Source: Lachnospiraceae bacterium oral taxon 500 (lineage in GTDB: Bacteria > Bacillota > Clostridia > Lachnospirales > Vallitaleaceae). From it: a stretch of 64,000 nucleotides of DNA. The notes under the pieces were generated by a model. The model did no database searches, was not told where the DNA came from, and saw only the letters and a program-made list of their open reading frames with translations. How positions within the stretch are numbered: the stretch's first letter is position 1; each line of letters opens with the position of its first letter. The stretch lies in contig CP027241.1 in NCBI GenBank assembly GCA_002999035.1, positions 186,001 through 250,000 of the forward strand, given 5' to 3'. Shown one piece after another: positions 6,465 through 57,911 of the stretch. The position numbers were made by a program, and so were the translations under genes.

Positions 6465-6479
6465 CACTATTTCCTCTCT

Positions 6480-41457: not shown

Positions 41458-41697
41458 TCAGGCCTCCTCCGGATAGGTGATGCGTCCGGTTTCTTTTTCC
41501 TCCAGCCATAAATTATATAGAGTAACAATGCTCAAATGCCACAGTTTGGTCTCCTCCCGCTCCAATTGGCTATACAGTTCCGAACAATATAGTTGGGTCA
41601 AAGCTTCGGTTTCAGTTAAATGCCGTTCTTCCATCAGCCTTTGAACCAGACGGGGAATAATCAGTTCCAGCATTCCTTTAACGCTCGTTTCACTCAT
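41458..41697 (-). CDS. Small acidic helical protein, middle gene of module B
   Basis: A 79-residue all-helical protein (MSETSVKGMLELIIPRLVQ...), homologous to the 76-residue protein of module A; the best block is LY.SEL...L..EET.LW. Its ATG overlaps the DUF3990 stop (ATGA, 4 nt) and its stop lies 2 nt before the DUF3791 start. This is tight translational coupling of all three genes. Function not recognised; probable partner of the DUF3990 protein. Confidence 0.8.
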   Translation of the reverse strand: MSETSVKGMLELIIPRLVQRLMEERHLTETEALTQLYCSELYSQLEREETKLWHLSIVTLYNLWLEEKETGRITYPEEA

Positions 41698-42194
41698 GGT
41701 TTTCCCCTTTCTATCGGCAGTTGTCCGCTATAGGTTAATTCATTCAAAGCCGCTTCTGTGGCAAAAGTCATCTGATTATACAACTCTTTCACCTTCAAAC
41801 GAGCAATGGTTTCTTCTTTAGTTAAAATTCCTTCTTCATAAGCAACGAACGTTCGATAAATGGTGTCATTCGCAACCGGCCCGAAAATAATGTCGTACTG
41901 CTTTCCGACATACATTCCATTCCGATTGGCAAATACAAAATCCAGCCATTCTTCGTTTGGTTCTGAAAAAACTAAAACCTTATACCTGCCTGCCAGCTTC
42001 TCTATGTCCGGTACGACATAGGAACTAACACAGGGCGAGCCGCTTTGTCTTCGGCTCGTTACCTTATCGGCAAAACTGATTGCCTGATTTAAATTAGTCG
42101 TTGTATAAAACCCATAACCAAAATCCAAAGTCCGGTTTTGGTGAACCAGCCTTGGGCGGGCAACAATAACATTACTGCCATGATATACAATCAT
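41694..42194 (-). CDS. DUF3990 protein, ADP-ribosyltransferase-like (module B)
   Basis: A 166-residue protein. Start ATG 42194 (MIVYHGSN) follows GGAGG by 6 nt; the same frame extends further up but crosses the leader. His5 and Tyr30 are at the same positions as in module A, and the third candidate is Glu147 in NQMTFATEAA. Shared motifs are DFG.GFYTT, EEWLDF..ANR and YDIIFGPVAND. The two copies differ at most other positions, so this is an old duplication or independent acquisition. A role as a toxin or signalling ADP-ribosyltransferase is inferred from motifs and context only. Confidence 0.85.
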   Translation of the reverse strand: MIVYHGSNVIVARPRLVHQNRTLDFGYGFYTTTNLNQAISFADKVTSRRQSGSPCVSSYVVPDIEKLAGRYKVLVFSEPNEEWLDFVFANRNGMYVGKQYDIIFGPVANDTIYRTFVAYEEGILTKEETIARLKVKELYNQMTFATEAALNELTYSGQLPIERGKP

Positions 42195-42267
42195 AGATAC
42201 CTCCGGATTGCTTCTGGGGTAAATGGTCAAAAACTCCTGACCATAATCAAAACCAATAAATATCATC

Positions 42268-42351
42268 TCAAACAGTACTAACCTCTTCCGCACGAATATG
42301 CTCTTCCCATTTCTCAGCACTGGCTTTCTCACGGGAATCTGCTTTCTGCAT
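42268..42351 (-). CDS. Possible 27-codon upstream ORF in the module B leader
   Basis: A short frame (MQKADSREKASAEKWEE...) starts about 5 nt after the module B -10 hexamer and ends at a TGA 73 nt before the DUF3990 ATG. It has no ribosome site, so it would need leaderless initiation. The charged helical composition is suggestive of a coding remnant. Weak support. Confidence 0.2.
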   Translation of the reverse strand: MQKADSREKASAEKWEEHIRAEEVSTV

Positions 42352-42451: not shown

Positions 42452-43501
42452 TTATCCGCGGTACATTTTCTCATAATAATTCTGGTATTCGCCGCTGACT
42501 ACCTTCTCAAGCCAATCTTCATGGTTTAAATACCACTGAATTGTTTCCGCCATCCCCTGCTCAAAAGTATAGCTCGGACTCCAACCCAACTTCGTCGTGA
42601 TTTTAGTGTTATCAATCGCATAGCGACGGTCATGCCCCGGGCGGTCCTTGACATACTCAATCAGATCTTCCGTCTTACCTAATTCCTTGATAATCAACTT
42701 AACAATCTCAATATTGGCTTTTTCATTATTGCCGCCAATATTATAAACCTCGCCCAGCTCGCCTTTCTCCAGAACAGTTAAAATCGCCGTGCAATGGTCT
42801 TTCACATGCAGCCAATCCCGGATCTGCATCCCATCACCGTAAACCGGCAGTTTTTTGTCCTTTTGGCAGTTATGAATCATCAGTGGAATCAGCTTTTCCG
42901 GGAACTGATACGGTCCGTAATTATTAGAACATCTGGTAATATTCACCGGCAAGCCAAAGGTTTCATGATAGGCTCGCACCAGCATATCGGCGCTGGCCTT
43001 GGACGCAGAATACGGACTGTTCGGTGCCAGCGGCGTACTTTCTGTAAAAAGTCCAGTTTTTCCCAGCGCACCATAAACCTCATCGGTTGACACCTGCAAA
43101 TATTTCACCCCCGGCTGATAAGTCCGGTCATATTTGTCCTGCGGCTTCACCTTCCAATGCTTTTTAGCCGTATCTAACAGCGCCTGCGTTCCCATAATAT
43201 TAGTCTTTAAAAAGATTTCCGGATCTTCAATACTTCTGTCGACATGCGACTCGGCTGCGAAATGAACGACGGTATCAATCTTATATTTAGCAAAAAGATT
43301 ATCCAGTAAATCCCGGTCACAAACATCCCCTTTGACAAAGGTATACCTCTGATCATCTTTAATATCCTCTAAATTTTCCAAATTGCCGGCATAAGTCAAG
43401 GCATCCAAATTGATAAGGTTATATTCTCCTCTTTCCAACATCAACTTAATAAAATTGGAACCAATAAAGCCGGCACCACCGGTAACTAAGATATTTTTCA
43501 T
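42452..43501 (-). CDS. rfbB: dTDP-glucose 4,6-dehydratase
   Basis: A 349-residue extended SDR enzyme (RmlB) making dTDP-4-keto-6-deoxyglucose. The NAD-binding GGAGFIGSNFIK, the STDEVYG motif with the Asp-Glu catalytic pair, and YSASKASAD (Tyr-x-x-x-Lys) are all intact. Its product feeds the deoxysugar genes at 46684-50485. It is the last gene of the cluster, before the terminator. Confidence 0.97.
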   Translation of the reverse strand: MKNILVTGGAGFIGSNFIKLMLERGEYNLINLDALTYAGNLENLEDIKDDQRYTFVKGDVCDRDLLDNLFAKYKIDTVVHFAAESHVDRSIEDPEIFLKTNIMGTQALLDTAKKHWKVKPQDKYDRTYQPGVKYLQVSTDEVYGALGKTGLFTESTPLAPNSPYSASKASADMLVRAYHETFGLPVNITRCSNNYGPYQFPEKLIPLMIHNCQKDKKLPVYGDGMQIRDWLHVKDHCTAILTVLEKGELGEVYNIGGNNEKANIEIVKLIIKELGKTEDLIEYVKDRPGHDRRYAIDNTKITTKLGWSPSYTFEQGMAETIQWYLNHEDWLEKVVSGEYQNYYEKMYRG

Positions 43502-43638
43502 GGTATTCTCCTTTGCTAATTGTTCATTGTTTCATTATTTATCTAACTTAAATAACTATTTCATCCAACCTGTTTTAAACGATTGCACCTTTGATTTCAT
43601 TTATATAAATCTGATGCAATAATTATCTTTCCATTTTA

Positions 43639-44199
43639 TCAATTCTTAGGATACAAAATTCTTTTTTCGCTGATTGGCAATACCTGTTCATATAATCTAA
43701 AAAGATTGATCAGACTTTTTCCTTTATCCGTAATTCTATATCCATCCCCTATTTTTTCTATATTCTTCAAGTATAACTGTTCCTGTATTCTTCGCTCTGT
43801 TGCTTTCATTTTATAAATATAGCCTTCGATAAAGGAAGCCTCTATTTCTTCTCTGGTAAAAACCTTATCTGAATTCTCAGTCATATCCGCCAATGAATAT
43901 ACCGTATATGACCGGTCAATCGGCATAGATACAATCGTAACAACAAATAACATAGCCAAAAAAACAGAAACATAAGTTGACGCTATTTCTACTTCCGAAA
44001 TATTAAGAATCTTGATTTTTTTCAATATAATACCAAATATTAAAGTAAGGATTATATTAAATACAACTAAGTATACTATCCGGTAATAATAAATCAATAC
44101 TCCTTCAAATAAAGGTGTCCGAATCAGAACCGCTAATAATACAGTATTACATAATCCTAAAACAACACATCTTACAAAATATTCCCATACTTTCTTCAC
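43639..44199 (-). CDS. Unknown membrane protein with C-terminal winged-helix-like tail
   Basis: A 186-residue protein with three or four membrane helices (VVLGLCNTVLLAVLI, IVYLVVFNIILTLIFGIIL, ASTYVSVFLAMLFVVTIV). The soluble C-terminal part has TREEIEASFIEGYIYKM and then a short EKIGDGYRITDKGKSLINLFRL segment, like the wing of a helix-turn-helix. Such proteins are sometimes found in polysaccharide loci. It lies between rmlA and rmlB. Function not recognised. Confidence 0.75.
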   Translation of the reverse strand: MKKVWEYFVRCVVLGLCNTVLLAVLIRTPLFEGVLIYYYRIVYLVVFNIILTLIFGIILKKIKILNISEVEIASTYVSVFLAMLFVVTIVSMPIDRSYTVYSLADMTENSDKVFTREEIEASFIEGYIYKMKATERRIQEQLYLKNIEKIGDGYRITDKGKSLINLFRLYEQVLPISEKRILYPKN

Positions 44200-44216
44200 T
44201 TTTTTCTCCTAAATGT

Positions 44217-45086
44217 TTATTTTTCCCTAGCCACTCGCTTTAAATACTGGCCATACTCCGACTTCTCCAAGGTTTTCGCCGCCTCAAGCAACTGTTCTTT
44301 CGTGATATAGCCTCTAAGATACGCAATCTCCTCTAAGCAGGAAACGTATAAGCCCGTTCTTTTTTGCATGGTCTGCACAAAATTGGATGCCTCCAATAGT
44401 CCTTCAAAGGTTCCGGTATCAAGCCACGCCATACCCCGGCCAAACAGTTCAACCTTCAACTGCTTTCGATTCAAATACTCCTGATTAACCGCCGTAATCT
44501 CCAGTTCCCCTCTGGCGGACGGTTTGATGTTTTTGGCAATCTCAACCACCTGATTATCATAAAAATACAGCCCCGGAATTGCGTAATTAGACTTAGGGTT
44601 TTCCGGCTTTTCTTCCAGCGAAAGTACATTCCAGTCTTTGTCAAACTCAACTACTCCAAAATCTTTCGGGTTATTCACATAATAGCCGTAAATCACTGCG
44701 CCTTGTTCCAAAGCGGCTGACTTCCATAAAAGTTCTGAAAAATGCCGACCATAAAAAATATTATCGCCCAGTACCAGACAAACATTATCCTTGCCAATAA
44801 ACTCCTCGCCAATAATAAATGCCTCCGCCAGTCCATTCGGTGCGGCCTGCACCGCATAGGACAGCGTCAGGCCAAGTGAACTGCCGTCGCCCAACAGATT
44901 TTGATAAAACGGCAAATCTCGCTCCGTCGAAATAATCAAGATTTCCCGAATCCGCGCCAGCATAAGCGTTGACAGCGGATAATAAATCATCGGTTTATCA
45001 TAAATCGGAACAATTTGCTTAGAAATTGATTTAGTAATTGGGTACAAGCGAGTACCTGCTCCACCAGCTAAAATAATTCCTTTCAT
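44217..45086 (-). CDS. rfbA: Glucose-1-phosphate thymidylyltransferase
   Basis: A 289-residue RmlA enzyme coupling dTTP and glucose 1-phosphate to dTDP-glucose. The nucleotide-binding [17 protein letters not shown], the VLGDNIFYG metal motif and [13 protein letters not shown] near the C-terminus are intact. It overlaps the GtrA gene by 4 nt. First step of the dTDP-sugar pathway of the cluster. Confidence 0.97.
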
Positions 45087-45490
45087 TTCATTTTCTCCTT
45101 CTTTTTAAAGATATAGAACTTACTGAAAATATAATTTAAGATAATAATAACTGCATTGACAATTACTTTGGAAATATATTTATGCGCCCCGATTTGCACC
45201 AGCAGCAGCATGCCACCGTTATCAATCAAAATCGTCATAATCCGCATTCCAAAAAACTGTAAAAAATTAGCTTTCGTAAACGCAACCGCAAAAACAAACT
45301 TGGTATTGGTATAATAGGCGAACAGCACCGCTAATACAAACGCCAGAGAATTCGATAGTAATAAAGAACACCCTAAAAAATCAAACAAGGCAAAAAGCAC
45401 CATATTAACAATCACTGTCAGCATCCCAAAAATCAAGTATAATATGGTTTCCTTATATTTTTTTATTAAGATAATTCCTTTTCCACTCAT
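45083..45490 (-). CDS. GtrA-family membrane protein (first copy)
   Basis: A 135-residue protein with four membrane helices ([39 protein letters not shown], and others), matching the GtrA family, which helps flip or handle polyprenyl-phosphate-linked sugars. Overlaps its neighbours on both sides by 4 nt, showing tight coupling between glf and rfbA. The substrate is unknown. Confidence 0.88.
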
Positions 45491-46671
45491 ACCAAACTAC
45501 TCGATATTTCTAATTCTTCTTTTAATATTTCCCATTTCTTTAAAGTATGGTTGATAATCCAATCCATATTATAGTATTTGTAGTCTGCTAACCGCCCACA
45601 CAAAAATAAATTGCTGTATTGACCAGCTTTATCCGTATATTTCTGAAAAAGTTCCAGATTTTCTTTGGCAACCACCGGATAGTAAGGTAAATTACCTCTA
45701 TCCGCATTTTTATCATACGGCATAGAATACTCTTTAGCTATTGTAGCATACTCGCCTTTTGGCTGTCCATTTATTTTGTTATATTCCGTAATTCTGGTAT
45801 ATGGCACATCCGGGGAAGGGCAGGATAAAATATCCGCTGGTAAAATAGAGTCTGCTTTTTGACTTTCATACTCAAACTCTAAGGAACGATAGGGAAGCGC
45901 CCCGTACTCAAGATTAAATAATTCATCAATTGCACCGGTAAACACTAATTTCTCGACACTATTCCCTTCATAAAGCACTTTTTTATTTTCTTCATCAAAA
46001 CTAATATGCTCCAAGGCATCTATGTTTAATTCAACTTTTATATTTTGATGCCTTAATAGATTTTCAAAAAGTGCTGTATATCCATATTTAGGAATAAATT
46101 GAAAGTCTGCATCTAAGTAACGTTCTTCATAATTCAGCCTCATCTTCACCCGATCCAAAACACTTTTATCCAATTGCTCTGGATCAAGACTCCATTGCTT
46201 GGCCGTATATGTCTTATAGGCCTTCTCATATAATAATGTTCCATATTCTTTGATATCCTCGTCTTTATGCCGGATCAACTCAAAGATAGATACTGTAGAG
46301 CGGCCTTTAAATTCTGTTCGCATTTTATTTAAAAGATAAGAAGCCTGCTTATAACCAACTAATTGCTGCATGGTTAAATAATTGAACGGCAGTTGAACAT
46401 ATTTCCCATCTATCAAACTCAATAATTTAACGGCAAAGGGAATGAGTTCTGTGTATTTTTCTAAAAATTCAATTACATGTACCATATTGGTATTGATCAG
46501 ATGCGGGCCGTATTTATGCACCATAACCCCATATTCATTTACATAATCATACATATTTCCGGCAATATGCGGTCTTTGTTCAATAACTCTAACCTTATAA
46601 TCCGCTTCTGCTAATTTCCTGGCTAAAATACTACCTGAAAAGCCACTTCCGACAACAATTGCTTCTTTCAT
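45487..46671 (-). CDS. glf: UDP-galactopyranose mutase
   Basis: A 394-residue FAD enzyme converting UDP-galactopyranose to UDP-galactofuranose. The FAD-binding N-terminus VGSGFSGSILARKLAE, the HIAGNMYDYVNEYGV stretch, HKYGPHLINTN and the C-terminal CGRLADYKYYNMDW motif are typical. Indicates galactofuranose in the glycan. Overlaps gtrA by 4 nt and follows the 4-ketoreductase gene by 12 bp. Confidence 0.96.
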   Translation of the reverse strand: MKEAIVVGSGFSGSILARKLAEADYKVRVIEQRPHIAGNMYDYVNEYGVMVHKYGPHLINTNMVHVIEFLEKYTELIPFAVKLLSLIDGKYVQLPFNYLTMQQLVGYKQASYLLNKMRTEFKGRSTVSIFELIRHKDEDIKEYGTLLYEKAYKTYTAKQWSLDPEQLDKSVLDRVKMRLNYEERYLDADFQFIPKYGYTALFENLLRHQNIKVELNIDALEHISFDEENKKVLYEGNSVEKLVFTGAIDELFNLEYGALPYRSLEFEYESQKADSILPADILSCPSPDVPYTRITEYNKINGQPKGEYATIAKEYSMPYDKNADRGNLPYYPVVAKENLELFQKYTDKAGQYSNLFLCGRLADYKYYNMDWIINHTLKKWEILKEELEISSSLV

Positions 46672-46683
46672 TTTCTGCTCCTA

Positions 46684-47607
46684 TTATATCTTGATGTCTA
46701 AAGTTTTAACCCAGTTTGCTGTTTCTAAAATATTTTTCTCAAAATCGGATACAACTGCATATCCCGTATCCCTATAAAGCGCACCAATATCAACTTTTCT
46801 ATAGTCCAAAGCCATAGCATCCGGATATACGCCAAATCTTAGTTCTACACTCGGCGCTAAAATATCTCTGACTTGACCGGCAATCTCCTTAAACGTGCGA
46901 AGCTTCTGGTTACCTACATAATAGCTTTTTTGATTTTCTCCCTTTTCGGCAATTGCACATAATCCAGCAACAATATCATCAATATATACCCAGTCATATA
47001 AAAAATCGCCTTCTACTAAGTCAGGACTTTTCCCTTTTAATAAATTGGATATTAAAATATTTGGAATAGTTTTTGACCGATCACCAGGTCCGTAGGAATT
47101 CGCAATCAACGCAATATTCATTTCTATTCCTTTTTGATAGGCCAGTGTTTTACAAATCATTTCTGCCGCTAATTTACTCGCTCCATAAATACAAGTATAT
47201 CGAGGCTTAATACCAGACTTACCAAAATAATCTATCACTTCCATTACATTGATAGTACTCGCCATAATAAACTTTTTAGTTTTAAATTGAATGGCTGCAT
47301 TTAAAGCATCCCCAGAATATACCGCATTATTCATCTGCATTTGGTAATTTTTAAAATATTCCCCATACGTTCCTTCCCAAGCAAGATGAAAAAAAACATC
47401 TATATCATTAAACTGATATTTTTCAGCCAATTGACTATATTCACTTAATTCCGCTTCTATGATATGCAGTTGGGTACTTTCTTGCCATTCCAGTATTTCT
47501 CCTCTAGAACGAACTACTGCAAAAATTTCGACATCTTCTTTCAGCAGCTTTTGGGTCAAGGCTCTGCCAATAAAGCCACTGGCTCCTGCAATGATTACCT
47601 TTTTCAT
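46684..47607 (-). CDS. NAD-dependent epimerase/dehydratase, predicted dTDP-4-keto-2,6-dideoxyhexose 4-ketoreductase
   Basis: A 307-residue extended SDR. Rossmann motif GASGFIGRALTQ, catalytic Ser in MASTINVME and YGASKLAAEM (Tyr-x-x-x-Lys) are present. It overlaps the 3,5-epimerase gene by 4 nt and follows the 2,3-dehydratase and 3-ketoreductase genes, the same functional set as OleV-OleW-OleL-OleU of dTDP-L-olivose synthesis. By that logic it reduces the 4-keto group last. An RmlD-like reductase is not seen elsewhere in the window. The fold is certain; the step is inferred from context. Confidence 0.8.
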   Translation of the reverse strand: MKKVIIAGASGFIGRALTQKLLKEDVEIFAVVRSRGEILEWQESTQLHIIEAELSEYSQLAEKYQFNDIDVFFHLAWEGTYGEYFKNYQMQMNNAVYSGDALNAAIQFKTKKFIMASTINVMEVIDYFGKSGIKPRYTCIYGASKLAAEMICKTLAYQKGIEMNIALIANSYGPGDRSKTIPNILISNLLKGKSPDLVEGDFLYDWVYIDDIVAGLCAIAEKGENQKSYYVGNQKLRTFKEIAGQVRDILAPSVELRFGVYPDAMALDYRKVDIGALYRDTGYAVVSDFEKNILETANWVKTLDIKI

Positions 47608-48170
47608 ACCAGATTCCTTTCCATATTTAAGTTTACATCACTATCTTTTAATTTCGGCGCTCTGGTGTCCTTTTCTGAAATAATCGGATTTTTTATCCCC
47701 CATTCTACATTTATCTCCGGGTCGTTCCACGCAATCGCCCGGTCAAATTCTGGATAATAAAATTCCGTTACTTTATACTGAACCTCACAGTGATCTTCCA
47801 AAGTCAAAAACGCATGACCAAACCCACTAGGAATCCAAATTTGTTTATGATTATCAGCTGACAGTTCAACCGCCAGCCATTTTTTAAACGTCAGCGAATC
47901 TTTGCGCAAATCAACTACCACATCCAATATTCTGCCTCTAATGCAGCGCACCAGCTTAATTTGAGGCTTCGGATTATTCTGAAAGTGAATTCCCCGTAGT
48001 GTTCCTTGCTTAATGGTATAACTGTGATTATCCTGAACAAAAGTCGCGTTAATCCCCAGTTCCGCCAATGTTCTGGCCGAATAGCTTTCCGTATAATATC
48101 CTCGATAGTCCTCAAAGTACCTTGGTTCTAAAATTTTAACACCCGCTAATTCCAGTTCTGTTATTTTCAT
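47604..48170 (-). CDS. rfbC: dTDP-4-keto-6-deoxyhexose 3,5-epimerase (RmlC family)
   Basis: A 188-residue cupin enzyme. RmlC landmarks are intact: RGYYTESYS, the catalytic His in LRGIHFQ, the IPSGFGHAFLTLED core and Tyr in TEFYYPEFDRAIAWNDP. In rhamnose synthesis it makes the L-configured 4-keto sugar. Here, with 2,3-dehydratase and 3-ketoreductase genes beside it, it probably epimerises a 2-deoxy intermediate to the L series. It overlaps the oxidoreductase gene by 35 nt. Confidence 0.93.
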   Translation of the reverse strand: MKITELELAGVKILEPRYFEDYRGYYTESYSARTLAELGINATFVQDNHSYTIKQGTLRGIHFQNNPKPQIKLVRCIRGRILDVVVDLRKDSLTFKKWLAVELSADNHKQIWIPSGFGHAFLTLEDHCEVQYKVTEFYYPEFDRAIAWNDPEINVEWGIKNPIISEKDTRAPKLKDSDVNLNMERNLV

Positions 48171-49152
48171 TTTCGTTTTCTTCCCTTTCTTGCCCTTGCA
48201 ACCACACCGCTTCCACTAACTCCGCCTGCCGCAATAACTCTTGATACTCCCTCTCCCTTCGCTGATTATTTGCCAAACAGCCTTCAAACCGCAGAATCGA
48301 GCCATAAAATTGATCCGCCGCCGGAATTCGAAGCGATTTTTTCTCGCCTTTTTCCTCTATCTCCAAAGCAACTTCCAGTTCCGATCCAGCCGTAAAAACC
48401 CGCGGTGATTTTATACTGCCCGTCTGTCCCCAAACTTCCAGCTCGCACTTATAGACGTTATCCATGCCAAAGCTGATTTGCGCCACTTGTCTTTTTGAAT
48501 TTTCCAGCACCGCTGAGCCATATAAATCAACATCGGATAACGTGTCTTGATTTAAACTAACATATTGACATTTTGTATCTTCGCCCAAAAGAATGCTTGC
48601 CAGTTTTACGGTATATCCGCCGCAATCCAGCAAAGCCCCACCACCTAACGCTTTCTCATAGCGAAAGTCTTTTCCCGCTCGCCGCGGAAAGCCAAAGGCA
48701 ATGCGAATCAGACGCAGCTCTCCAATTTTTTCCTCCGCTATCATCGCCTGAATCGCCCTTAGTTGTGGATGCTCGGTAAACATATAGTTCTCGCGCAGCG
48801 CCAAATTCTTTTGCTTTGCCAGCCTCACCAATTCTTGCGTTTGCTCATAGGAAATCGTTGACGGTTTTTCCAAGAAAACATGCTTGCCGTTTTCCAGTGC
48901 TTTTCTCGCCCATTCAAAATGCAGCGCCGGCGGAAGCGGCAAATAAACGGCATCAATTTCTCCGTCCGCCAAAAGTTCCTCGTAACTGCCATAGCCCTTA
49001 CCACCAAACTCGTGCACAAATTTCTCTGTTTTTGCCAGTTCTCTGGATGCTACACCGGCATATTCCCAATTTTCTGCTTTTTTTAGCGCCGGCAGGAAAC
49101 GTCGAAAAGCAATTTCTGAAGTTCCTAAAATTCCTATTTTAATTTTGGCCAT
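48136..49152 (-). CDS. Gfo/Idh/MocA-family oxidoreductase, predicted NDP-3-keto-sugar 3-reductase
   Basis: A 338-residue NAD(P)-dependent enzyme. The N-terminal Rossmann fold starts KIGILGTSEIAFRRFLPAL, followed by the family EKPSTISYEQTQELV motif (catalytic Lys in EKP) and GGGALLDCGGYTV. Members next to NDP-hexose 2,3-dehydratases (for example KijD10, OleW, UrdT) reduce the C3 keto group to form the 2,6-dideoxy sugar. The gene overlaps the 2,3-dehydratase gene by 14 nt, strongly supporting this role. Confidence 0.85.
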   Translation of the reverse strand: MAKIKIGILGTSEIAFRRFLPALKKAENWEYAGVASRELAKTEKFVHEFGGKGYGSYEELLADGEIDAVYLPLPPALHFEWARKALENGKHVFLEKPSTISYEQTQELVRLAKQKNLALRENYMFTEHPQLRAIQAMIAEEKIGELRLIRIAFGFPRRAGKDFRYEKALGGGALLDCGGYTVKLASILLGEDTKCQYVSLNQDTLSDVDLYGSAVLENSKRQVAQISFGMDNVYKCELEVWGQTGSIKSPRVFTAGSELEVALEIEEKGEKKSLRIPAADQFYGSILRFEGCLANNQRREREYQELLRQAELVEAVWLQGQEREENENENNRTGISGC

Positions 49153-50485
49153 CTTCCCTTCCTCCCAGTACCGACAAAAGATTTCTTAGTTGTATATTAA
49201 GACAATTATTTATCTGTGTCAATAAGTTTAGCGTTCGGAGATCAACCGCAAAGTAGCCCGCCGGCAAAATACCGATCTCCCTCTTATCAACTTCTATGAT
49301 TACATTATGGTTCTGCTCATGATAAAATCTTCCGCCCTCTTCTGATAAAATCGTGTCAAACAGAACCCCTTGCCTCTGGTGATACTTTTCCCAGAACAAG
49401 GTTCGAATCCAATCTTTTTCCTCTCCTCGCGCTCCCGCTTCCTGCTGAATGGTCGGCCCCAGTTCTATTTTATCAAAGCAGCCCACCTCTGGCACTGCTT
49501 TAACAACAAAATACCATGTTCCGTCCTCTTGATAACGAAGCAGCCCAAAAAATGCTTTCCCTACCGCTTCAAATAAAGGCTGACACCATTTGACAACTTC
49601 CCGGCCTTCAATCTCAATTTCGCAAAAGACCACTTTAAACGGATATTCTCTTTTATGTGCGATTTCCGCTTCTGTTATTCTCCAGTCTTTCAATGCCGTT
49701 AAAGCCGTCTGCTGCCGCTTTCGACTGTCAAACATTTTATAATTATTGATAAAATGATATATCTCCGGTAAATGATTCTGCCCATCGCCAACACAAGCGT
49801 TCTTTAAAAAGTCCGTCGGCAGCCCCAAAGGCACCCATTGCTCCACACCATGCAGCGCAAAAGGAATACAGGAAAGTACCGTCCGAGTATCCATATTGAC
49901 CAGATTTTCGACCATCATTAGTTCCTTAATCTGCGGCAAAGTTATCCACTTATGCGAAGGCAGTACCTCTATGTCTTCGTCTATCTTGATGATAATGTTG
50001 CGGTTACGCTTACCCCAAAAGCGTGACGACTGCTCCGACTGGATTTGATCCACTATAATCTGCTCTTTTTTAGCATAAATAAAGTAATCCAAATAAGCTG
50101 GTTTTTTCCCGCCATGCTGCTGGGTAAAATTACTTTTTGTCGCCTGAATGGTTGGTGACAGTTGAATCTTATTGATATTGCCCGGTTCAATCTTTGCCTG
50201 CATCAAAAAATGAGTTTCGCCGTCAAAATCCCTGCAAATAATCCCTAAGTAGCCAATCTCTTCCTGCAATAAAATAGGCTGCTCCAAAAGAACCTCGCCC
50301 TGTGGATTGACTTCCCGCAAACCAGCAATTTGAAAAAAGGTATTCTTCGCATTGCGGATATAACCATCTTTTTCATCTAAAAACCAGCCCTGGCACTCCG
50401 CAAAATGGATTTTGCTAATTTCTACCTTAGTGGTTTGATTTCGAGATTTAATCCATAATAGGATATCATTCATCTGATTTTGCAT
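49139..50485 (-). CDS. NDP-hexose 2,3-dehydratase (2-deoxysugar-forming)
   Basis: About 448 residues; start ATG 50485 lies 7 nt after AAGGAG. It has the internal two-fold repeat typical of the hexose_dehydrat family (EvaA, TylX3, OleV). The first half carries EPGNINKIQLSPTIQATKSN and QTEQSS..WGKRNRNIIIKI, and the second half DKIELGPTIQQEAG and EEGGRFYHEQNHNVIIEV. This enzyme removes the 2-OH from dTDP-4-keto-6-deoxyglucose, the committed step to 2,6-dideoxyhexoses. It is mostly known from actinobacterial antibiotic clusters, so its place in a Clostridia surface-glycan cluster is unusual. Overlaps the GT2 gene by 20 nt. Confidence 0.88.
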   Translation of the reverse strand: MQNQMNDILLWIKSRNQTTKVEISKIHFAECQGWFLDEKDGYIRNAKNTFFQIAGLREVNPQGEVLLEQPILLQEEIGYLGIICRDFDGETHFLMQAKIEPGNINKIQLSPTIQATKSNFTQQHGGKKPAYLDYFIYAKKEQIIVDQIQSEQSSRFWGKRNRNIIIKIDEDIEVLPSHKWITLPQIKELMMVENLVNMDTRTVLSCIPFALHGVEQWVPLGLPTDFLKNACVGDGQNHLPEIYHFINNYKMFDSRKRQQTALTALKDWRITEAEIAHKREYPFKVVFCEIEIEGREVVKWCQPLFEAVGKAFFGLLRYQEDGTWYFVVKAVPEVGCFDKIELGPTIQQEAGARGEEKDWIRTLFWEKYHQRQGVLFDTILSEEGGRFYHEQNHNVIIEVDKREIGILPAGYFAVDLRTLNLLTQINNCLNIQLRNLLSVLGGREDGQN

Positions 50486-51446
50486 TGCTATTCTCCTTAG
50501 CAGCTTCCGGCTGATCAAAGTTCAGTTTCTTTTCAATGACTACTAATGGGCGTTTTAATAAACGAGCGTTAATGCTCAAAATATATTCTCCTAAAATACC
50601 TATAAAGAAAAGCTGAACGGCACCAATAAGAAAAATCCCGATGATAATACTAGCCGTTCCGATTGGATAACTATCCCAGTGTAATAGCTTATATACAAAA
50701 ACATACAGTGCTATTAATATACTTCCTATTCCCATTATCATTCCTACAAAAGTAGCCGCCCGCATCAATAGCTTTGTATATGAGGTTACTCCTATCATGG
50801 CTTCATCATAATACTTAAAAAAATTAAAACCGGACGAGCCCCTCTCGCTTTTGGCTTGGTGGTATTTCATAATATACATATTCATGCCAAATTCCGATAT
50901 AATTCCTCTAAGATAAGGAACCGGGTCTTCTATATTCCTTATAGTATCTACAAAAACCCGATCATACAGGCCAAAACCATTAAAATGTTCAATTTGTTGA
51001 TTACTGGCCATTTTCCTGATTAGTTTGTAATATATCGTTCTAAAAAAGTACAGCAATGGATTTTCTGAACTGCTATATTTTTGACCAATGATAACTTTAT
51101 AGCCTTCTTCCCACTTTTTTACAAACTCCGGTAATAATTCTGGTGGATCCTGTAAATCACCAAACAACATAAAGGTGGCATCTCCGCTGCCTTGTAAAAA
51201 AGTTGAAAAAACATTCCTTGAAAAGCCAAAATTTTTAGCATTGCGAATTCCTTTAACTTTTCTGTCAAAAGCGCATACCTTTTCAATTTCCTGCCATGTA
51301 TTATCCGGTGAACAGTCATCTACAAAGAAAATTTCATAATCGTATTTTGTTAACTCATTTTGAAAAACTGCTACTAATCTCTCATACATCAACTGGATAC
51401 TTTTTTCTTCCTTATAACATGGAATAACCACGCTAATCTTTTTCAT
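50466..51446 (-). CDS. Family 2 polyprenyl-phosphate glycosyltransferase with two C-terminal membrane helices
   Basis: About 326 residues. The GT2 domain has VVIPCYKEEKSI, FFVDDCSPDNTW and FGDLQDPPE (metal-binding Asp). It ends in two membrane helices, the DPM1/GtrB plan for loading a sugar onto a polyprenyl phosphate. I start at ATG 51446 (MKKISVV); a TTG 36 nt upstream is an alternative. It would provide the lipid-linked donor for GtrA and the GT-C-like proteins of the cluster. Confidence 0.88.
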   Translation of the reverse strand: MKKISVVIPCYKEEKSIQLMYERLVAVFQNELTKYDYEIFFVDDCSPDNTWQEIEKVCAFDRKVKGIRNAKNFGFSRNVFSTFLQGSGDATFMLFGDLQDPPELLPEFVKKWEEGYKVIIGQKYSSSENPLLYFFRTIYYKLIRKMASNQQIEHFNGFGLYDRVFVDTIRNIEDPVPYLRGIISEFGMNMYIMKYHQAKSERGSSGFNFFKYYDEAMIGVTSYTKLLMRAATFVGMIMGIGSILIALYVFVYKLLHWDSYPIGTASIIIGIFLIGAVQLFFIGILGEYILSINARLLKRPLVVIEKKLNFDQPEAAKENSNAKSDE

Positions 51447-51501
51447 ATCACCACTTATTTCCTTCCTAATTTCAGCTTTCAAATAAACTATTTCACCTTT
51501 T

Positions 51502-53268
51502 TTATTCCCTTAAAAAATCCTCTAAATAAAAACTTATCTGCCATCCGCAAGTATAGTAAATGGGTTTATCGGATTGATCACTGGTCTTAACTATTTTACC
51601 ACATTTAATTCCATAATCCTTTAAATTATATAGATATCCACTGCACCCTTCCTCCGGAGTTCGAACAAAGCCCACTTCCAGTATTTTATCATTTTCAAAT
51701 GCATTTTGGGAAATAATGCTGAAATCTTTATTAGTCTTTATGCTTTCTTTATATATGTCTGTAAATACCTTTGCCCAAGGGATAATATTTAAAAATATTC
51801 CTACAATAAAGATTCCTGCAATAATTTTCATTAAAATATTTCGGGAATTCTTTTTAATATTTCCCAATATTAAAAGAACTGACAACGGAATTATAACATA
51901 AAAATAGCCGACATATCTAAGCCCTCCTGCTCCTAAAGGCGTTAAACTGCATTGAATAAAAATCAACCCTAAAATTCCAATAGAAGTCTTATAAAAGAAA
52001 TCATTTATTATATATTTTTTATTCTGATAAATAATCACTGCTAATATAATTACACTTATAATAAATAGTCCACTAAAAAGGACTCCATAAGCCCCAAAAT
52101 GTGGAGCATGAATGTAATAAGATACTATTTCCCTGATTGAAAACGTAAATGGAATTTTTAACGGTAATTGAGTTTCACTCCAAAAATCTCCCATTTTTCC
52201 AAATAATAATGCCCAAAATATTTGAGGAGTATTAAACCCATCTGTTGATGTGGCAAAGCTTCCAGACATATATCCCAAAGTATTTCCTATCACTCCCGGC
52301 AAAATTTCTTTCCACCGCAAGTAATTCGTTACATATGGCGCAAAACCCACTAAAATAATACTTAACAATGTATAAATAGCTAGTGTCATAAAAATCTTAA
52401 AACTACTTAAAACACAAATTGCTTCTTTTTTTCGTTCTTTCCAAAAAACTATCCCAAAAAAGATTAAGCAAATGACTCCCATTGAATAAAGGGCATTAAA
52501 TTTAGTATTTATTCCTATTATAATACTCAATCCGACAGCATTTAGCACTTCCTCTTTTTTAATCTCGATATACTTTGCATCTAAAAGCATAATAATAAAT
52601 ATCAAGTTTACTATTACCATATTATTCAATGGTGCATCCACATAAAATGTCCGAAGTTGAGTAAGAGCAACAGGATTTAACATTGTAATTAGTGCTATTA
52701 GAAAACTTGATATTCTATTAAAATATCTTGTTCTCACATAATCATAAAAAAAGCAAAAAATCATAAACATAGTTATAAAATGATACGCTTTTCCGCATTC
52801 TATATTTTGACTTATAGCATATATACTTGCCCCAAAAATAGCCATTCCTTTAGGAAAAAATTCTATCCACTTCCATTCATCTTTCCCTATTACTCTTGGC
52901 AAACTCCCCAACTTTGCATTAAATTCCTCCGGTGTTTCATAAACTGGGTTCCAGCCCTCTTTTAACAAACCCACCATCGGTTTTCGATATGCATTGCCGT
53001 CATACGAGGTATCAATCACATTCCCTGAAATCATAATAAACAGACATGCTATGACTATGCTAATAATCGTGATTTGCAAGATGTTTTCTTTTTTTAGCAT
53101 TTTAAAACTCAGTATCGTCAGCAACAGCGAAATCAAAGTATGCGCCGGGCCAATTGTAATGCCAATAAAAAACAGCAACATAGAAATGGTAATCAAAATT
53201 GCCATATATATTAGGAAAAATAATCCTAAATCAAAGTAAAAGTGTTTCTTTCTATTCTTTATCTCCAT
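51502..53268 (-). CDS. GT-C-like polytopic membrane glycosyltransferase candidate (first copy)
   Basis: A 588-residue, very AT-rich gene coding for a protein with about 11-13 membrane helices. After the early helices comes an extracytoplasmic loop with DTSYDGNAYRKPMV (acidic at about 86-90) and later a MLNPVALTQLRTFYVD block. The paralogue at 54354 has TWDGAAYHK and ALNPVVLAQ...YYLD at equivalent places. Asp in the first outer loop is a hallmark of GT-C glycosyltransferases using polyprenyl-linked sugars. I do not recognise a named family, so the activity is inferred. Confidence 0.7.
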   Translation of the reverse strand: MEIKNRKKHFYFDLGLFFLIYMAILITISMLLFFIGITIGPAHTLISLLLTILSFKMLKKENILQITIISIVIACLFIMISGNVIDTSYDGNAYRKPMVGLLKEGWNPVYETPEEFNAKLGSLPRVIGKDEWKWIEFFPKGMAIFGASIYAISQNIECGKAYHFITMFMIFCFFYDYVRTRYFNRISSFLIALITMLNPVALTQLRTFYVDAPLNNMVIVNLIFIIMLLDAKYIEIKKEEVLNAVGLSIIIGINTKFNALYSMGVICLIFFGIVFWKERKKEAICVLSSFKIFMTLAIYTLLSIILVGFAPYVTNYLRWKEILPGVIGNTLGYMSGSFATSTDGFNTPQIFWALLFGKMGDFWSETQLPLKIPFTFSIREIVSYYIHAPHFGAYGVLFSGLFIISVIILAVIIYQNKKYIINDFFYKTSIGILGLIFIQCSLTPLGAGGLRYVGYFYVIIPLSVLLILGNIKKNSRNILMKIIAGIFIVGIFLNIIPWAKVFTDIYKESIKTNKDFSIISQNAFENDKILEVGFVRTPEEGCSGYLYNLKDYGIKCGKIVKTSDQSDKPIYYTCGWQISFYLEDFLRE

Positions 53269-54353: not shown

Positions 54354-56057
54354 TTATGGTAGTTCCTTATAATATAACCAATTTGCATATGTCAATTGAA
54401 ATGTTTCATCTACCTGTTCTCTTAAAACTAATTCATAGTTGATATCCTTATCCATTAAATTATAATTCATTCCACTAAAATCATCCACATAAAAACAAAC
54501 CTGATATTTTTTTCCTTCTTGACTTCTATTTTTCATATAATTCAAAATCGCTCTAATATCTGTAGCTGCATCAATTTTATGAAGCATTACCGGAACATAC
54601 GGCGCTGTATTTAGAATTCCCATAACGCAAATAAATATTCCGATATAATTTGAAATCTTATTTTTCAATTTATTTTCCAAACTAAACAATATAAAAAGTG
54701 AAATAAAAAATAATATATAGATATGTCCGATATATCTGGTATTATACGATGTTGGTAAAAATGCCATTTCTATAAAAGATATCCATGAAAATATTTCCAC
54801 AATCAGCATTTTATCTTTTGTATCACTAAATTCTTTTCTCCATTGTTTTCTTTTTAAAGCCCATACAATAATACTCAGAAAAAATATACCACTAAAAAAT
54901 ACACCTAACCCTCCAACTCTAGGGTCTACATAGTAATAATAATTCAATTCCTCCATTTTAAAAGTAAATGGTATCTTAACCAAATCTCCTATTTGTGTCA
55001 GATTTCCATGGCTCATTCTTCCTATCAATGATAGAAAAAACATAACGGGATCACTCAGTCCCTTAATTCCAAAATATTGCCCTGCAAGGTCTTTTGTCAT
55101 AAATCCCTGTTCCCCAATGAAACCATAAAAAATATTTTGATATCTTAATAGGTTAGTTAAATATGGTGAAACTCCAACTACACCCACTGCCATAAATGCC
55201 GAAAAAGCCAATATTAGAAACCTTCCCCCCACTTTTCGTTTATTTGTTTCCCTATAACAATAATACAGAATAAAAATAATAGCATATGTTGCTACAAACA
55301 GTCCTACTGAAAATTTTAAATTACATCCTATTATCATCAAAAAAGATAAATTGAGCCAATTCTTTGCTTGATCTCGCCCCTCAAAAACTTGCATAAATAA
55401 TAGCATAATTAGCATTAAACTACAGACTACAACACTGTCCAAATAATATGAACAAAACTGTGCCAATACAACAGGATTTAAGGCTATAACTAAAGAACTC
55501 AAAATAGCTTGATATTTTTTTAAACCTTTTCTGATTAAAAATTCCGAAAAGAATAAATATGTAATCAGCGCAAACAACAAGTGGTACATCTTTCCCGATT
55601 CTATATTCCCGGTAAGCGCATAAATCGAAGCGCTGAAATACCAAGTCGCTTTGGGATATGCTTCTGCCCAAAGCATTGGATTGTGTCTAGGAATTTGAAT
55701 ATTATGAGACAATTCATTAAAAACCGTGTTGGCCTGATACACCGGATTCCATCCATATTTCAAAAAACCAATAGCCTGCTTATGATAAGCGGCCCCATCC
55801 CATGTTTGATCAAAAACCGAACTACTAAATAATGTTATCAATACAATAATAGCCGCCACCACAACTAAATGAAATATTGTCTTTTTAAAATCATTATCTT
55901 TATACAAAAAAATACTCGCCGTAACCGTGCTCGCAAAAAGAATATTCCATATACTCACACTAATTCCAGCCAGCAAAAAAATTGCAGTAACAACGACTGT
56001 CATAGAAAAAAAAGTCAACAGCATTGATGCAAGTTTATATCTATCAACTTTATACAT
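54354..56057 (-). CDS. GT-C-like polytopic membrane glycosyltransferase candidate (second copy)
   Basis: A 567-residue protein with about 11-13 helices, paralogous to the 588-residue protein at 51502. The outer-loop acidic motif is FDQTWDGAAYHK (Asp83/Asp87), and the second conserved block is ALNPVVLAQFCSYYLDS. Its gene is strongly AT-rich, like its neighbours. It likely transfers a lipid-linked sugar outside the membrane. The HAD and UbiA genes next to it suggest a polyprenyl-phosphate pentose as possible donor. Not a family I can name with certainty. Confidence 0.7.
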   Translation of the reverse strand: MYKVDRYKLASMLLTFFSMTVVVTAIFLLAGISVSIWNILFASTVTASIFLYKDNDFKKTIFHLVVVAAIIVLITLFSSSVFDQTWDGAAYHKQAIGFLKYGWNPVYQANTVFNELSHNIQIPRHNPMLWAEAYPKATWYFSASIYALTGNIESGKMYHLLFALITYLFFSEFLIRKGLKKYQAILSSLVIALNPVVLAQFCSYYLDSVVVCSLMLIMLLFMQVFEGRDQAKNWLNLSFLMIIGCNLKFSVGLFVATYAIIFILYYCYRETNKRKVGGRFLILAFSAFMAVGVVGVSPYLTNLLRYQNIFYGFIGEQGFMTKDLAGQYFGIKGLSDPVMFFLSLIGRMSHGNLTQIGDLVKIPFTFKMEELNYYYYVDPRVGGLGVFFSGIFFLSIIVWALKRKQWRKEFSDTKDKMLIVEIFSWISFIEMAFLPTSYNTRYIGHIYILFFISLFILFSLENKLKNKISNYIGIFICVMGILNTAPYVPVMLHKIDAATDIRAILNYMKNRSQEGKKYQVCFYVDDFSGMNYNLMDKDINYELVLREQVDETFQLTYANWLYYKELP

Positions 56058-56061
56058 TTGT

Positions 56062-56640
56062 CTATTCCTTTCCCCAAAAATTTATTTTTTTATCCTCTTT
56101 TATTAAATACGCACTTTCCGCTTTTTCGGCTAAGTATCGATCCGAATAAGTATCCGAATAAAATTCTTTTATCTCCGCTTCCGGGCATTCCGCTTTTAAT
56201 CTTACCACTTTTTCTTTCCCATAGCAATTCGGCGATAAAAAATGGCCGCTATGAGAATCAACTTTACTGGCAATCAGCTTATAAATCTTCATTTCTCGGC
56301 TTGGAATTTCCAATAAAAACTCCGGCGATGCCGATATAATCACATCTTTTGAATGATCTTTTTTCTCTAAATACCATTTCTTTATTTTTCTTAAATGCTG
56401 CTGCCAAAATTTTTCAACATGCTCCATCGTATTTGGAATATACTTCAAAAAAGAGAAAAATATTTCTTTCAATTGCTCTTTCTTTATTTTTTTCAAAAAA
56501 TACTGAAGGAACGCCACCATTAAGCTCGGCAAAATCCTTATAATGCTAAACGGATGCCGCTGAAAAGTAAACAGAAAAAAATCCACGCTGCTGTCACCCC
56601 GATAAATTGTTCCGTCAAAATCATACACATATATTTCCAT
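56062..56640 (-). CDS. HAD-superfamily phosphatase (IB-like)
   Basis: A 192-residue enzyme. HAD motifs are visible: YDFDGTIYRGD (nucleophile Asp and acid Asp), IISASPEF (motif II), a conserved Lys in YGKEKVVRL and YSDTYSDRYLAE (motif IV). It lies 7 bp from the UbiA-family gene, so it may remove the 5-phosphate from a polyprenyl-phosphoryl-pentose phosphate, the step after DPPR synthase. This role is inferred from context. Confidence 0.85.
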   Translation of the reverse strand: MEIYVYDFDGTIYRGDSSVDFFLFTFQRHPFSIIRILPSLMVAFLQYFLKKIKKEQLKEIFFSFLKYIPNTMEHVEKFWQQHLRKIKKWYLEKKDHSKDVIISASPEFLLEIPSREMKIYKLIASKVDSHSGHFLSPNCYGKEKVVRLKAECPEAEIKEFYSDTYSDRYLAEKAESAYLIKEDKKINFWGKE

Positions 56641-56647
56641 AAACTAT

Positions 56648-57505
56648 TTACCTTCCATATAGCACATACAGCATTAAAGCCGCATAAATAATTCCCAGAC
56701 TCATTATAGTTTTATCCGATAAAATAACCTCTACCGGATCACCGTCGGAATCGCTTTCAATAATCAGCGTATACTTCAAAACCGTTATAATCACAATCGG
56801 TACCGAAAGTAAAACAACATCACCATAAATCTTAACTACACTTTCGCACCACAAGGAATAAAAAACCATGGTCGTTCCCAAGAACATATACATTACTTTG
56901 TCCAAAAATTCCTTTGGGTAATATCTCAAAACCAGCCGATGCGTCATCCCCCTTTTTAGCAGTTCGTTCCTACGCTTGCCAAAACCTAAAAAGAACGATA
57001 ATGACATCATACTTAAATATAGCCAAGCCGAAACTGTAATATCCACTAACACCGCCCCAAAATAAATCCGCAAAATATAGCCAAAGGCTAAAATAAGAAC
57101 GTCTATGATGGGATAATTTTTAAGATAACTGCTGTAAGCAATATTTAATGCCAAATATACCATTAAAACAACCAATGGCAGCACCTTATGGTGAACAATA
57201 AGAACATTAATACCCAAAACCGCCGCCAGCAAAAGGAACGCTATCGCTCTAGCTGTTTTTATCTTAATTTCTCCACTGGCCAGCGGCCGAAATCGTTTGG
57301 TTGGATGTTGTCTGTCTTTCTCAATATCTTTAATATCATTAAAAATATATACTACTGACGAAATCAGACTAAAAAGAAAAAAACCAATCCCTGCCTGAAT
57401 AACTTTGGGAATATCAAACAGATTATTCGCAAATACCAGCGGAACAAATACCAATATATTTTTAATATAATGCTTTATCCTAAGTAGCTTAATGTATTTC
57501 TTCAT
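56648..57505 (-). CDS. UbiA-family prenyltransferase resembling decaprenyl-phosphate phosphoribosyltransferase
   Basis: About 285 residues with eight or nine membrane helices; start ATG 57505 (MKKYIKLLRIKHY). The first Asp-rich motif and following stretch, NDIKDIEKDRQHPTKRFRPLASG, closely resembles the corresponding part of mycobacterial DPPR synthase (Rv3806c), and YLKNYPIID matches the second motif. Such enzymes join PRPP to polyprenyl phosphate, the first step to lipid-linked ribo- or arabinofuranose. HAD and GtrA genes flank it. The start overlaps gtrA by 17 nt. Confidence 0.85.
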   Translation of the reverse strand: MKKYIKLLRIKHYIKNILVFVPLVFANNLFDIPKVIQAGIGFFLFSLISSVVYIFNDIKDIEKDRQHPTKRFRPLASGEIKIKTARAIAFLLLAAVLGINVLIVHHKVLPLVVLMVYLALNIAYSSYLKNYPIIDVLILAFGYILRIYFGAVLVDITVSAWLYLSMMSLSFFLGFGKRRNELLKRGMTHRLVLRYYPKEFLDKVMYMFLGTTMVFYSLWCESVVKIYGDVVLLSVPIVIITVLKYTLIIESDSDGDPVEVILSDKTIMSLGIIYAALMLYVLYGR

Positions 57506-57911
57506 TCCTTTTCCCTTTCTCAAATACATATATTTTATTCAGCATATATGTCGCCAATATAATTCCGCCACTGATAAATACTTTGCTCAGCATCTTATCC
57601 TGTCTCAAACAGCTCACAGCAATATAAAGCAAAAGCGAGTCCAGTACAATGGAAAAAGCCCTTACCAAAACATAGCGAATAAATTCGTTTTTCCTGGCCC
57701 TTGACCTTTTTTCGATAAATACCCATTTTTTATTGAAGTAATAGGAAATAACTACCGCAATCACAAAAGACAATACATTGGCAATCAGATAATTCATATC
57801 AAGTTCTACCATGAAGTAATACATCAGCAAATTCAGAATCGTTGTAACCCCTCCAAAAAAAGCATATCGCAGCATTTCTTTTAGGGTATTTTTATTTAGT
57901 AACCGCTTCAT
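57489..57911 (-). CDS. GtrA-family membrane protein (second copy)
   Basis: A 140-residue protein with four membrane helices (YAFFGGVTTILNLLMYYFMV, YLIANVLSFVIAVVISYYFN and more), ending in a Lys/Glu-rich tail. Similar in plan but not closely identical to the GtrA at 45083. Its ATG shares one base with the stop of the preceding GT gene (TAATG) and it overlaps the UbiA gene. Together with UbiA and HAD it resembles the set used for lipid-linked arabinofuranose handling in mycobacteria (Rv3789 is a GtrA protein). Confidence 0.87.
   Translation of the reverse strand: MKRLLNKNTLKEMLRYAFFGGVTTILNLLMYYFMVELDMNYLIANVLSFVIAVVISYYFNKKWVFIEKRSRARKNEFIRYVLVRAFSIVLDSLLLYIAVSCLRQDKMLSKVFISGGIILATYMLNKIYVFEKGKRNEEIH

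Follow-up and report, generated by a model that had tools for sequence, protein, structure and literature searches.

We analysed a stretch of 64,000 nucleotides (nt) of Lachnospiraceae bacterium oral taxon 500 (contig CP027241.1, positions 186,001 to 250,000), called the window at its full length; the genome is one contig of 3.2 Mb. Loci and genomes compared with it carry L-numbers and G-numbers, respectively. The window holds a run of genes for a predicted dTDP-2,6-dideoxy-L-hexose pathway and, within this run, a homolog of UDP-galactopyranose mutase (UGM). The initial annotation of this DNA had named six pathway genes, encoding a 2,3-dehydratase, a 3-ketoreductase, RmlC, an SDR protein, RmlA and RmlB. 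All six were confirmed in position as open frames on the minus strand, and their family assignments were borne out by profile matches. The genes are as follows.

50466..51482 (-), GT2a: glycosyltransferase of family GT2 that resembles polyprenyl-phosphate-sugar synthases (ArnC/PgfS/GtrB-like) and opens the overlapping run (PF00535, 91.5 bits)
49139..50485 (-): NDP-hexose 2,3-dehydratase (EvaA/OleV type), predicted product dTDP-3,4-diketo-2,6-dideoxy-D-glucose (PF03559, 397 bits)
48136..49152 (-): Gfo/Idh/MocA 3-ketoreductase, predicted C3 reduction (PF01408, 96 bits; PF22725)
47604..48170 (-): RmlC-type 3,5-epimerase, predicted D-to-L step (TIGR01221, 222 bits, cut-off 155.75)
46684..47607 (-): extended SDR, predicted 4-ketoreductase (PF01370, 114 bits; YGASK motif)
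45487..46671 (-): UGM homolog in which residues that contact base and sugar are altered; proposed to be a dTDP-2,6-dideoxy-L-hexopyranose/furanose mutase (TIGR00031, 328 bits, cut-off 304)
45083..45490 (-), GtrA1: transmembrane protein of the GtrA/DPMS family, which may flip a lipid-linked sugar (PF04138, 63.5 bits)
44217..45086 (-): RmlA, glucose-1-phosphate thymidylyltransferase (TIGR01207, 475 bits, cut-off 361)
42452..43501 (-): RmlB, dTDP-glucose 4,6-dehydratase (TIGR01181, 514.5 bits, cut-off 365)

The 2,3-dehydratase, 3-ketoreductase, RmlC and SDR genes had been described as contiguous, and we found overlaps of 14 nt (dehydratase/ketoreductase), 35 nt (ketoreductase/RmlC) and 4 nt (RmlC/SDR). 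The run continues on both sides: the 2,3-dehydratase gene overlaps GT2a by 20 nt, the SDR gene is followed by the UGM gene after a gap of 12 nt, and the UGM/GtrA1 and GtrA1/RmlA pairs overlap by 4 nt each. All junctions from GT2a to RmlA thus overlap, save the gap ahead of the UGM gene. Because the genes overlap and the only gap is a short one, the eight genes from GT2a through RmlA (51482-44217) look like a single operon.

The initial annotation had made its reading depend on whether the 49139-50485 protein belongs to the NDP-hexose 2,3-dehydratase family. The protein matched PF03559 at 397 bits against a cut-off of 25, with a duplicated domain, and its sole solved relative is EvaA (4j7g, 269 bits). 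The catalytic glutamates of pocket A in EvaA are E139 and E190 (PMC8987622), and their equivalents are kept in all 20 aligned 2,3-dehydratases, EvaA and the window protein included. The family is rare. It was found in 2/22 genomes of the window's family, 9/391 of its class and 1/46 of the class of G767; the phylum sample yielded 5/398 genomes, four of these over the cut-off. None of the 14 control genomes and none of the phages searched carried it. Named relatives come from metagenome-assembled genomes (MAGs) of Filifactor alocis, a 'Clostridia bacterium', a Lachnospiraceae and an Actinomycetota, and from a Synergistales assembly.

We then placed 20 dehydratases in a tree. Fifteen from anaerobes and others, including that of the window and one from an Actinomycetota MAG, lay apart from four actinobacterial natural-product enzymes and the enzyme of G017; the root is a midpoint root only, and its actinobacterial side includes G017, which belongs to the same family as the window genome. 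Matches on plasmid records numbered 85, 75 of them Streptomyces, with identities of 34-37% among the 20 matches listed, and the three plasmid-borne relatives inspected all adjoin polyketide synthase (PKS) or nonribosomal peptide synthetase (NRPS) genes. The contrast that had been drawn with actinobacterial antibiotics calls for caution. A recent import of the window dehydratase from actinobacterial antibiotic clusters was considered and is unsupported by the tree, the position of G017 notwithstanding.

The best match of the Gfo/Idh/MocA protein in the PDB is the sugar 3-ketoreductase 3rbv (218.7 bits), which we take to be KijD10; the next different protein scored 119.8 bits. The alignment showed that the lysine of the EKP motif is kept, as is a tyrosine that is Phe in entry 3rc7, and these two are presumably the catalytic residues. 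RmlC matched 3ryk best (201 bits), while NovW and PCZA361.16 reached 85-88 bits. The SDR protein (46684-47607) was over the cut-off of no NCBIfam model, and rmlD was not among the best 25 of its 27 matches; in other loci, its relatives belong to this operon or adjoin it, and its assignment as a 4-ketoreductase was made solely by gene place and family. Genome-wide, only one RmlA was over the cut-off, that of the operon, and no RmlD was (best 47 bits, cut-off 224). These two results make rhamnose unlikely, and we rejected the idea that RmlC serves dTDP-L-rhamnose synthesis. It is sound to say that all families of the predicted dTDP-2,6-dideoxy-L-hexose pathway occur together in the window, with L-olivose or an epimer as the expected product. 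The initial annotation had likened the set to OleV-OleW-OleL-OleU, the route to dTDP-L-olivose, and we take OleW, OleL and OleU to be the 3-ketoreductase, 3,5-epimerase and 4-ketoreductase counterparts. The likeness holds for the full enzyme set; L-olivose is one candidate for the sugar, since the sequence does not fix C3 and C4. The genes it listed are present; it omitted the UGM homolog, which points to a furanose, and the GtrB-like/GtrA pair, which points to lipid-linked transfer.

The UGM homolog (45487-46671) is the only UGM over the TIGR00031 cut-off in the window genome, and a single one was likewise found in G127, G236, G322, G381 and G767. Twelve dehydratase genomes were searched with TIGR00031. 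Eight dehydratase-bearing genomes carry a variant UGM scoring 327-356 bits, compared with 394-434 bits for six other UGMs, and G391 and G362 hold ordinary UGMs besides the variant (one and four, respectively). All eight variants fell into one clade (support 100/100) when compared with 34 other UGMs; identities of the window protein are 49-58% within the clade and 29-41% with the 34.

To describe the differences between them, we used KpUGM numbering and the contacts given in Table 3 of PMC3624792. In KpUGM, F152 and Y155 stack on uracil, N270 bonds uracil, N84 and Y349 bond galactose, and R174, Y185, R280 and Y314 bond the diphosphate; the bonds in DrUGM are those of F175 and N296 to uracil and of H109 and R305 to galactose (PMC3624792). 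DrUGM F175, N296 and H109 correspond to alignment positions 151, 270 and 84. The eight variants all have A151, S270, N/T63, I/L62 and V/A/T/I84, each of which is absent from all 29 other UGMs aligned. The window protein has V, A, Y and S at 84, 151, 152 and 270, so that uracil and galactose contacts are changed. Kept in 8/8 variants are R174, Y185, R280, Y314, Y155, W160, Y349 and H60, among them the residues of flavin and diphosphate binding. An alanine at 151 could leave room beside the base for the thymine methyl group, and the loss of the side chain at 84 would fit a sugar with fewer hydroxyls.

The gene order is conserved between distant genomes. The order GT2a-dehydratase-ketoreductase-RmlC-SDR-UGM-GtrA1 is common to the window, L048 (G322) and L061 (G767), which represent three families, with G767 in another class. 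L055 reads dehydratase-ketoreductase-RmlC-SDR-SDR-UGM-RmlA-RmlB and L045 reads UGM-RmlA-RmlB-dehydratase-ketoreductase-RmlC-SDR; on shorter contigs of dehydratase genomes (L110 in G236, L111 in G381, L112 in G362) the UGM gene lies between SDR and RmlA. In 8/8 loci the variant is thus in a run with RmlA, RmlC or SDR, with an NDP-6-deoxyhexose gene set around it each time. With a dehydratase family this rare and a gene order repeated in genomes so far apart, the gene set of the window is no chance assembly.

A profile of the eight variants was then run over the 391 genomes of the class. Seven proteins scored 672-752 bits and the next best 408 bits; across the 398 phylum genomes, scores over 600 bits were obtained only in the window genome and G767. 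The variant mutase occurs in 7/9 dehydratase genomes of the class and in 0/382 others (Fisher p 1.4e-13). The informative part of the search is that the variant is absent from all other sampled genomes. The two dehydratase genomes of the class that lack the variant are G108, where a DegT aminotransferase gene follows the ketoreductase, and G232, where only an SDR gene lies beside the dehydratase. Outside the class sample, DegT is present and UGM absent in G017 and G602. Similarly, in L017, L018, L043, L044 and L062 a DegT gene follows dehydratase-ketoreductase, and no UGM was seen within the stretch examined. If the aminotransferases act at C4, this split between DegT and UGM is chemically sensible: the free 4-hydroxyl required for a furanose would be missing from a 4-amino sugar. 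These five DegT loci, which are glycan loci of anaerobes and others, probably specify amino-dideoxy or amino-trideoxy sugars. L043 also carries RmlC and a PglD-like acyltransferase, and L062 a GNAT acetyltransferase.

We further compared the variants with mutases from other settings. The UGM of G581 (L133, L140) has as neighbours a glucose-1-phosphate cytidylyltransferase (TIGR02623, 398 bits), a CDP-glucose 4,6-dehydratase (TIGR02622, 450 bits), an SDR and RmlC. The genomes of the phylum sample in which the dehydratase was found do not include G581. The mutase of G581 departs from ordinary UGMs with Leu84, Asp151, Tyr152, Leu154 and Ala270; His84 and Asn270 are retained in the nine other UGMs added alongside it, one of which, L130, duplicates the gene L076. 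In a tree of 35 UGMs, the L140 protein was sister to the eight variants (support 100/99), and the eight stood apart from 26 others. Simons and co-workers reconstituted the Campylobacter jejuni HS:41 enzymes, among which an FAD mutase interconverts CDP-6-deoxy-L-altropyranose and its furanose and accepts two different 6-deoxyhexoses (PMC12369002). As a separate observation, L140:5811-10283, in a genome of the same phylum as the window, holds a gene set like that of HS:41 for a CDP-6-deoxyhexofuranose.

Viral UGMs were also aligned (80 loci taken from 180 relatives, 57 distinct). Position 84 is His or Asn in 54 of the 57, position 270 is Asn in 55, and position 63 is His in all; Ala151 was found in none of them. 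The departures at 84 or 270 are L147 (L84, S270), L154 (L84), L156 (T270) and L171 (Q84), and the homologs L147:3279-4442 and L156:5953-7077 are perhaps mutases for other nucleotide sugars.

We next considered how the sugar might be delivered. The initial annotation had placed the pathway in a surface-glycan setting, and this agrees with adjoining glycosyltransferase genes and polymer-export ABC-transporter genes in the cluster. The following features lie nearby.

51502..53268 (-), MEM588: candidate transferase of the GT-C kind that would use a lipid-linked sugar, a polytopic membrane protein (30% identity to MEM567)
54354..56057 (-), MEM567: paralog of MEM588, probably for a second lipid-linked sugar module (weak WsfD match, NF051875, 24.8 bits, cut-off 80)
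56062..57911 (-): second lipid-sugar module, with a HAD phosphatase (56062-56640, PF12710), a UbiA-family phosphoribosyltransferase-like protein (56648-57529, PF01040) and GtrA2 (57489-57911, PF04138)
43639..44199 (-): frame of 186 amino acids (aa) between RmlA and RmlB, with hydrophobic stretches and no family match

GT2a scored 178.5 bits with NF047588 (PgfS) and 105 bits with PRK10714 (ArnC), both under the cut-off. In L048 (456 bits) and L061 (482 bits) the corresponding position holds a close relative, each with two predicted membrane stretches, and similar genes occur in L044 and L062 (113 and 109 bits). For GtrA1, too, L048 (109 bits) and L061 (152 bits) have a relative at the matching position. 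The GtrA family is credited with moving polyprenyl-linked sugars across the membrane. MEM588 and MEM567 have in common the stretches D...DG.AY.K and GWNPVY. In L061 a 528-aa membrane protein three genes ahead of GT2a is a WsfD protein over the cut-off. Together with the weak WsfD match of MEM567, this is all that was seen of a GT-C protein next to a GtrB-like GT2 and GtrA. About 13 kb upstream of GT2a, immediately past the edge of the window (L066), there are ABC-2 transporter genes of polymer export; in L048 the corresponding distance is about 6 kb, and L061 has a Wzt-type ATPase. The GtrB-like transferase and GtrA in the operon of three genomes, together with the polymer-export ABC-transporter genes, suggest lipid-linked delivery of the sugar, which is the weakest step of the proposal. 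Since L055 lacks GT2a and GtrA1, the dideoxysugar is probably used in other ways too.

Several features of the surroundings were recorded in their own right. The UbiA-like protein (56648-57529) scored 214 bits with NF008977, decaprenyl-phosphate phosphoribosyltransferase (cut-off 234), and the second module (54354-57911, minus strand) recalls mycobacterial decaprenyl-phospho-ribose/arabinose synthesis. An arylsulfotransferase-type (ASST) gene lies directly ahead of GT2a in G767 (L061:9111-10682). The 186-aa frame has no counterpart between RmlA and RmlB in L048, L055 and L112. On the minus strand of the window, two DUF3990 genes (37297-37827 and 41694-42332) flank Sua5-type and GH18-type genes, and positions 2070-11510 hold two very large genes (1465 and 1676 aa), whose only match over a cut-off is fibronectin type III in the first.

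Taken together, these results suggest, at a probability of roughly 0.7, that the operon 51482-44217 and RmlB make dTDP-2,6-dideoxy-L-hexofuranose and deliver it to a surface glycan. The reactions, ring form, stereochemistry and delivery route are predicted from gene content, gene order, family membership, rarity, the mutase clade and the residue changes. RmlA would form dTDP-glucose and RmlB the 4-keto-6-deoxy sugar, from which the 2,3-dehydratase would take off the C2 hydroxyl. The Gfo/Idh/MocA enzyme would then reduce C3, RmlC would invert C5 and perhaps C3 too, and the SDR would reduce C4 to give dTDP-2,6-dideoxy-L-hexopyranose (L-olivose or an epimer). The UGM homolog, with reduced FAD, would contract the ring to the furanose. 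Next, the sugar would be transferred to polyprenyl phosphate by GT2a, the lipid-linked form would cross the membrane with the help of GtrA1, and the candidate GT-C protein (51502-53268) would attach it outside to the polymer exported by the ABC transporter of the cluster. Because a modified UGM homolog sits inside a dideoxysugar operon, this protein is probably a dTDP-2,6-dideoxy-L-hexopyranose mutase and the end product a furanose. We put forward more tentatively, at a little under even odds, the wider idea that a UGM-type subfamily switched both base and sugar to dTDP-2,6-dideoxy-L-hexopyranose and that some anaerobes carry the furanose as a polyprenyl-phosphate sugar by means of GT2a and GtrA1 and attach it outside the cell.

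A number of observations weigh against this proposal. As to the mutase, position 152 separates the groups poorly (Y in 6/8 and F in 2/8 variants), and the proline that L048 has at 154 recurs in many viral UGMs (43/57). The L140 mutase, whose function is predicted from its neighbours, is on a long branch (1.09), and a search of E. coli for relatives of two mutase DNAs found none. As to the co-occurrence, the variant profile derives from these eight proteins themselves, which partly predetermines the score gap; the genomes are related and the eight may stem from few transfers, so the counts are not independent and the Fisher test overstates. G017 has the dehydratase, ketoreductase, RmlC, RmlA and RmlB and no UGM, though it has a DegT gene. 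In G362 an ordinary UGM (L049) lies beside a dehydratase fragment and the variant is on another contig with RmlC, SDR, RmlA and RmlB; the ketoreductase was not seen in the broken contigs of this genome. As to delivery, no GT2a or GtrA1 relatives were seen in L045, L055, L110, L111 and L112, where long flanks on both sides were available for L055 only and the other four were cut by contig ends; GT2a and GtrA1 could thus serve another sugar. MEM588 (51502-53268) and L048:6453-8360 match no Pfam or NCBIfam family, and a structure model of MEM588 (pLDDT 34) was discarded.

It is unlikely that the pathway ends at dTDP-2,6-dideoxy-L-hexopyranose (L-olivose) and that the UGM homolog, though diverged, acts as an ordinary UDP-galactopyranose mutase giving galactofuranose to the same polymer. 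Such an enzyme would account for the passing of the TIGR00031 cut-off (328 vs 304), for its being the only UGM in the window genome and in the five other genomes named above, and for the flavin and diphosphate residues that are kept. However, the uracil- and galactose-contact residues are changed in 8/8 variants, and the clade is separate from 34 and 26 other UGMs in the two comparisons and has as its sister a UGM that lies in a CDP-6-deoxyhexose gene set. Moreover, the gene overlaps GtrA1 in the window and is in a run with RmlA, RmlC or SDR in all eight loci, and G391 and G362 have ordinary UGMs too, so the variant is not needed there for galactofuranose. A different sugar nucleotide seems rather improbable as the product. 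On that account, the SDR is no 4-ketoreductase, or the mutase acts on another intermediate, for example a 6-deoxyhexose made by RmlA, RmlB and SDR without the 2,3-dehydratase. The SDR is indeed over no NCBIfam cut-off (best 25 of 27 matches), two SDR genes are present in L053, L055, L110 and L111, and the Campylobacter mutase takes two 6-deoxyhexoses (PMC12369002). In the class sample, however, the variant mutase occurs only alongside the 2,3-dehydratase (7/9 vs 0/382).

We consider it very improbable that the genes serve a secreted, antibiotic-like natural product and no surface glycan. The enzyme kinds are those of actinobacterial antibiotic clusters (PMC8987622), and the three plasmid-borne dehydratase relatives lie beside PKS or NRPS genes. 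On the other hand, the window genes scanned, which were not all of its genes, included no PKS or NRPS; the surroundings hold GT2/GT4 transferases, GtrA, UbiA, membrane proteins and, farther upstream, genes of an ABC transporter; the dehydratase is apart from the four natural-product enzymes; and in L048 the operon is followed by a WcaJ glycosylphosphotransferase. We retain the furanose pathway feeding a surface glycan as the best explanation.

In relation to known systems, the actinobacterial dTDP-2,6-dideoxyhexose routes (OleV, EvaA and kin, named in PMC8987622) likewise use a 2,3-dehydratase, 3-ketoreductase, 3,5-epimerase and 4-ketoreductase after RmlA/RmlB. Unlike them, the window set is in a surface-glycan cluster, its dehydratase stands apart in the tree, its epimerase is nearer RmlC than NovW/PCZA361.16, and a UGM-type mutase belongs to the operon. 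The C. jejuni HS:41 set for CDP-D-fucofuranose and CDP-6-deoxy-L-altrofuranose (HS41.17 to HS41.21, PMC12369002) also comprises a nucleotidyltransferase, 4,6-dehydratase, 3,5-epimerase, C4-reductase and FAD mutase, and yields a capsular furanose. The window has dTDP in place of CDP and additionally a 2,3-dehydratase and 3-ketoreductase, so its product would be 2-deoxy. Kinship was seen only to the mutase of the similar CDP set (L140), the HS41.17 sequence itself being outside the tree. UDP-galactopyranose mutase (Glf/UGM) belongs to the same sequence family and has the same FAD and diphosphate residues; the window protein differs at the uracil and galactose contacts. The dTDP-fucopyranose mutase Fcf2 of E. 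coli O52 would be a dTDP-deoxyhexose mutase of this family; its sequence is outside our tree, and its sugar, D-fucose, is 6-deoxy and not 2,6-dideoxy. GtrA, GtrB and GT-C proteins form a three-component system of glycan decoration; the window likewise has a GtrB-like GT2, GtrA and polytopic membrane proteins, but its donor sugar would be made in the same operon, and its GT-C is a candidate only. The polyprenyl-phosphate dideoxyfuranose proposed here would be a counterpart of mycobacterial decaprenyl-phospho-arabinofuranose. Through its mutase, the window pathway appears to be a new variant of the known deoxyhexofuranose pathways.

In open-licence PubMed Central (PMC) literature, we found no report of 2,6-dideoxyhexofuranose sugars or mutases under six such names, which is weak evidence of absence; judged by titles and the starts of abstracts, none of the papers listed describes a clostridial surface glycan that contains a 2,6-dideoxyhexose. 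In the passages of PMC7725333 examined, the only dideoxy sugars mentioned are 3,6-dideoxy. Our proposal, if true, would add a sugar ring form without report in the literature searched. Furanosides and 2-deoxy-glycosides are acid-labile, and routine sugar analysis could for this reason have missed such sugars. The annotation 'UDP-galactopyranose mutase' would be wrong in operons of this kind, and residues 84, 151 and 270, with 63, would be a signature for mutases of other nucleotide sugars. Dideoxysugar chemistry of the antibiotic type would then be at work in the surface polymers of anaerobes.

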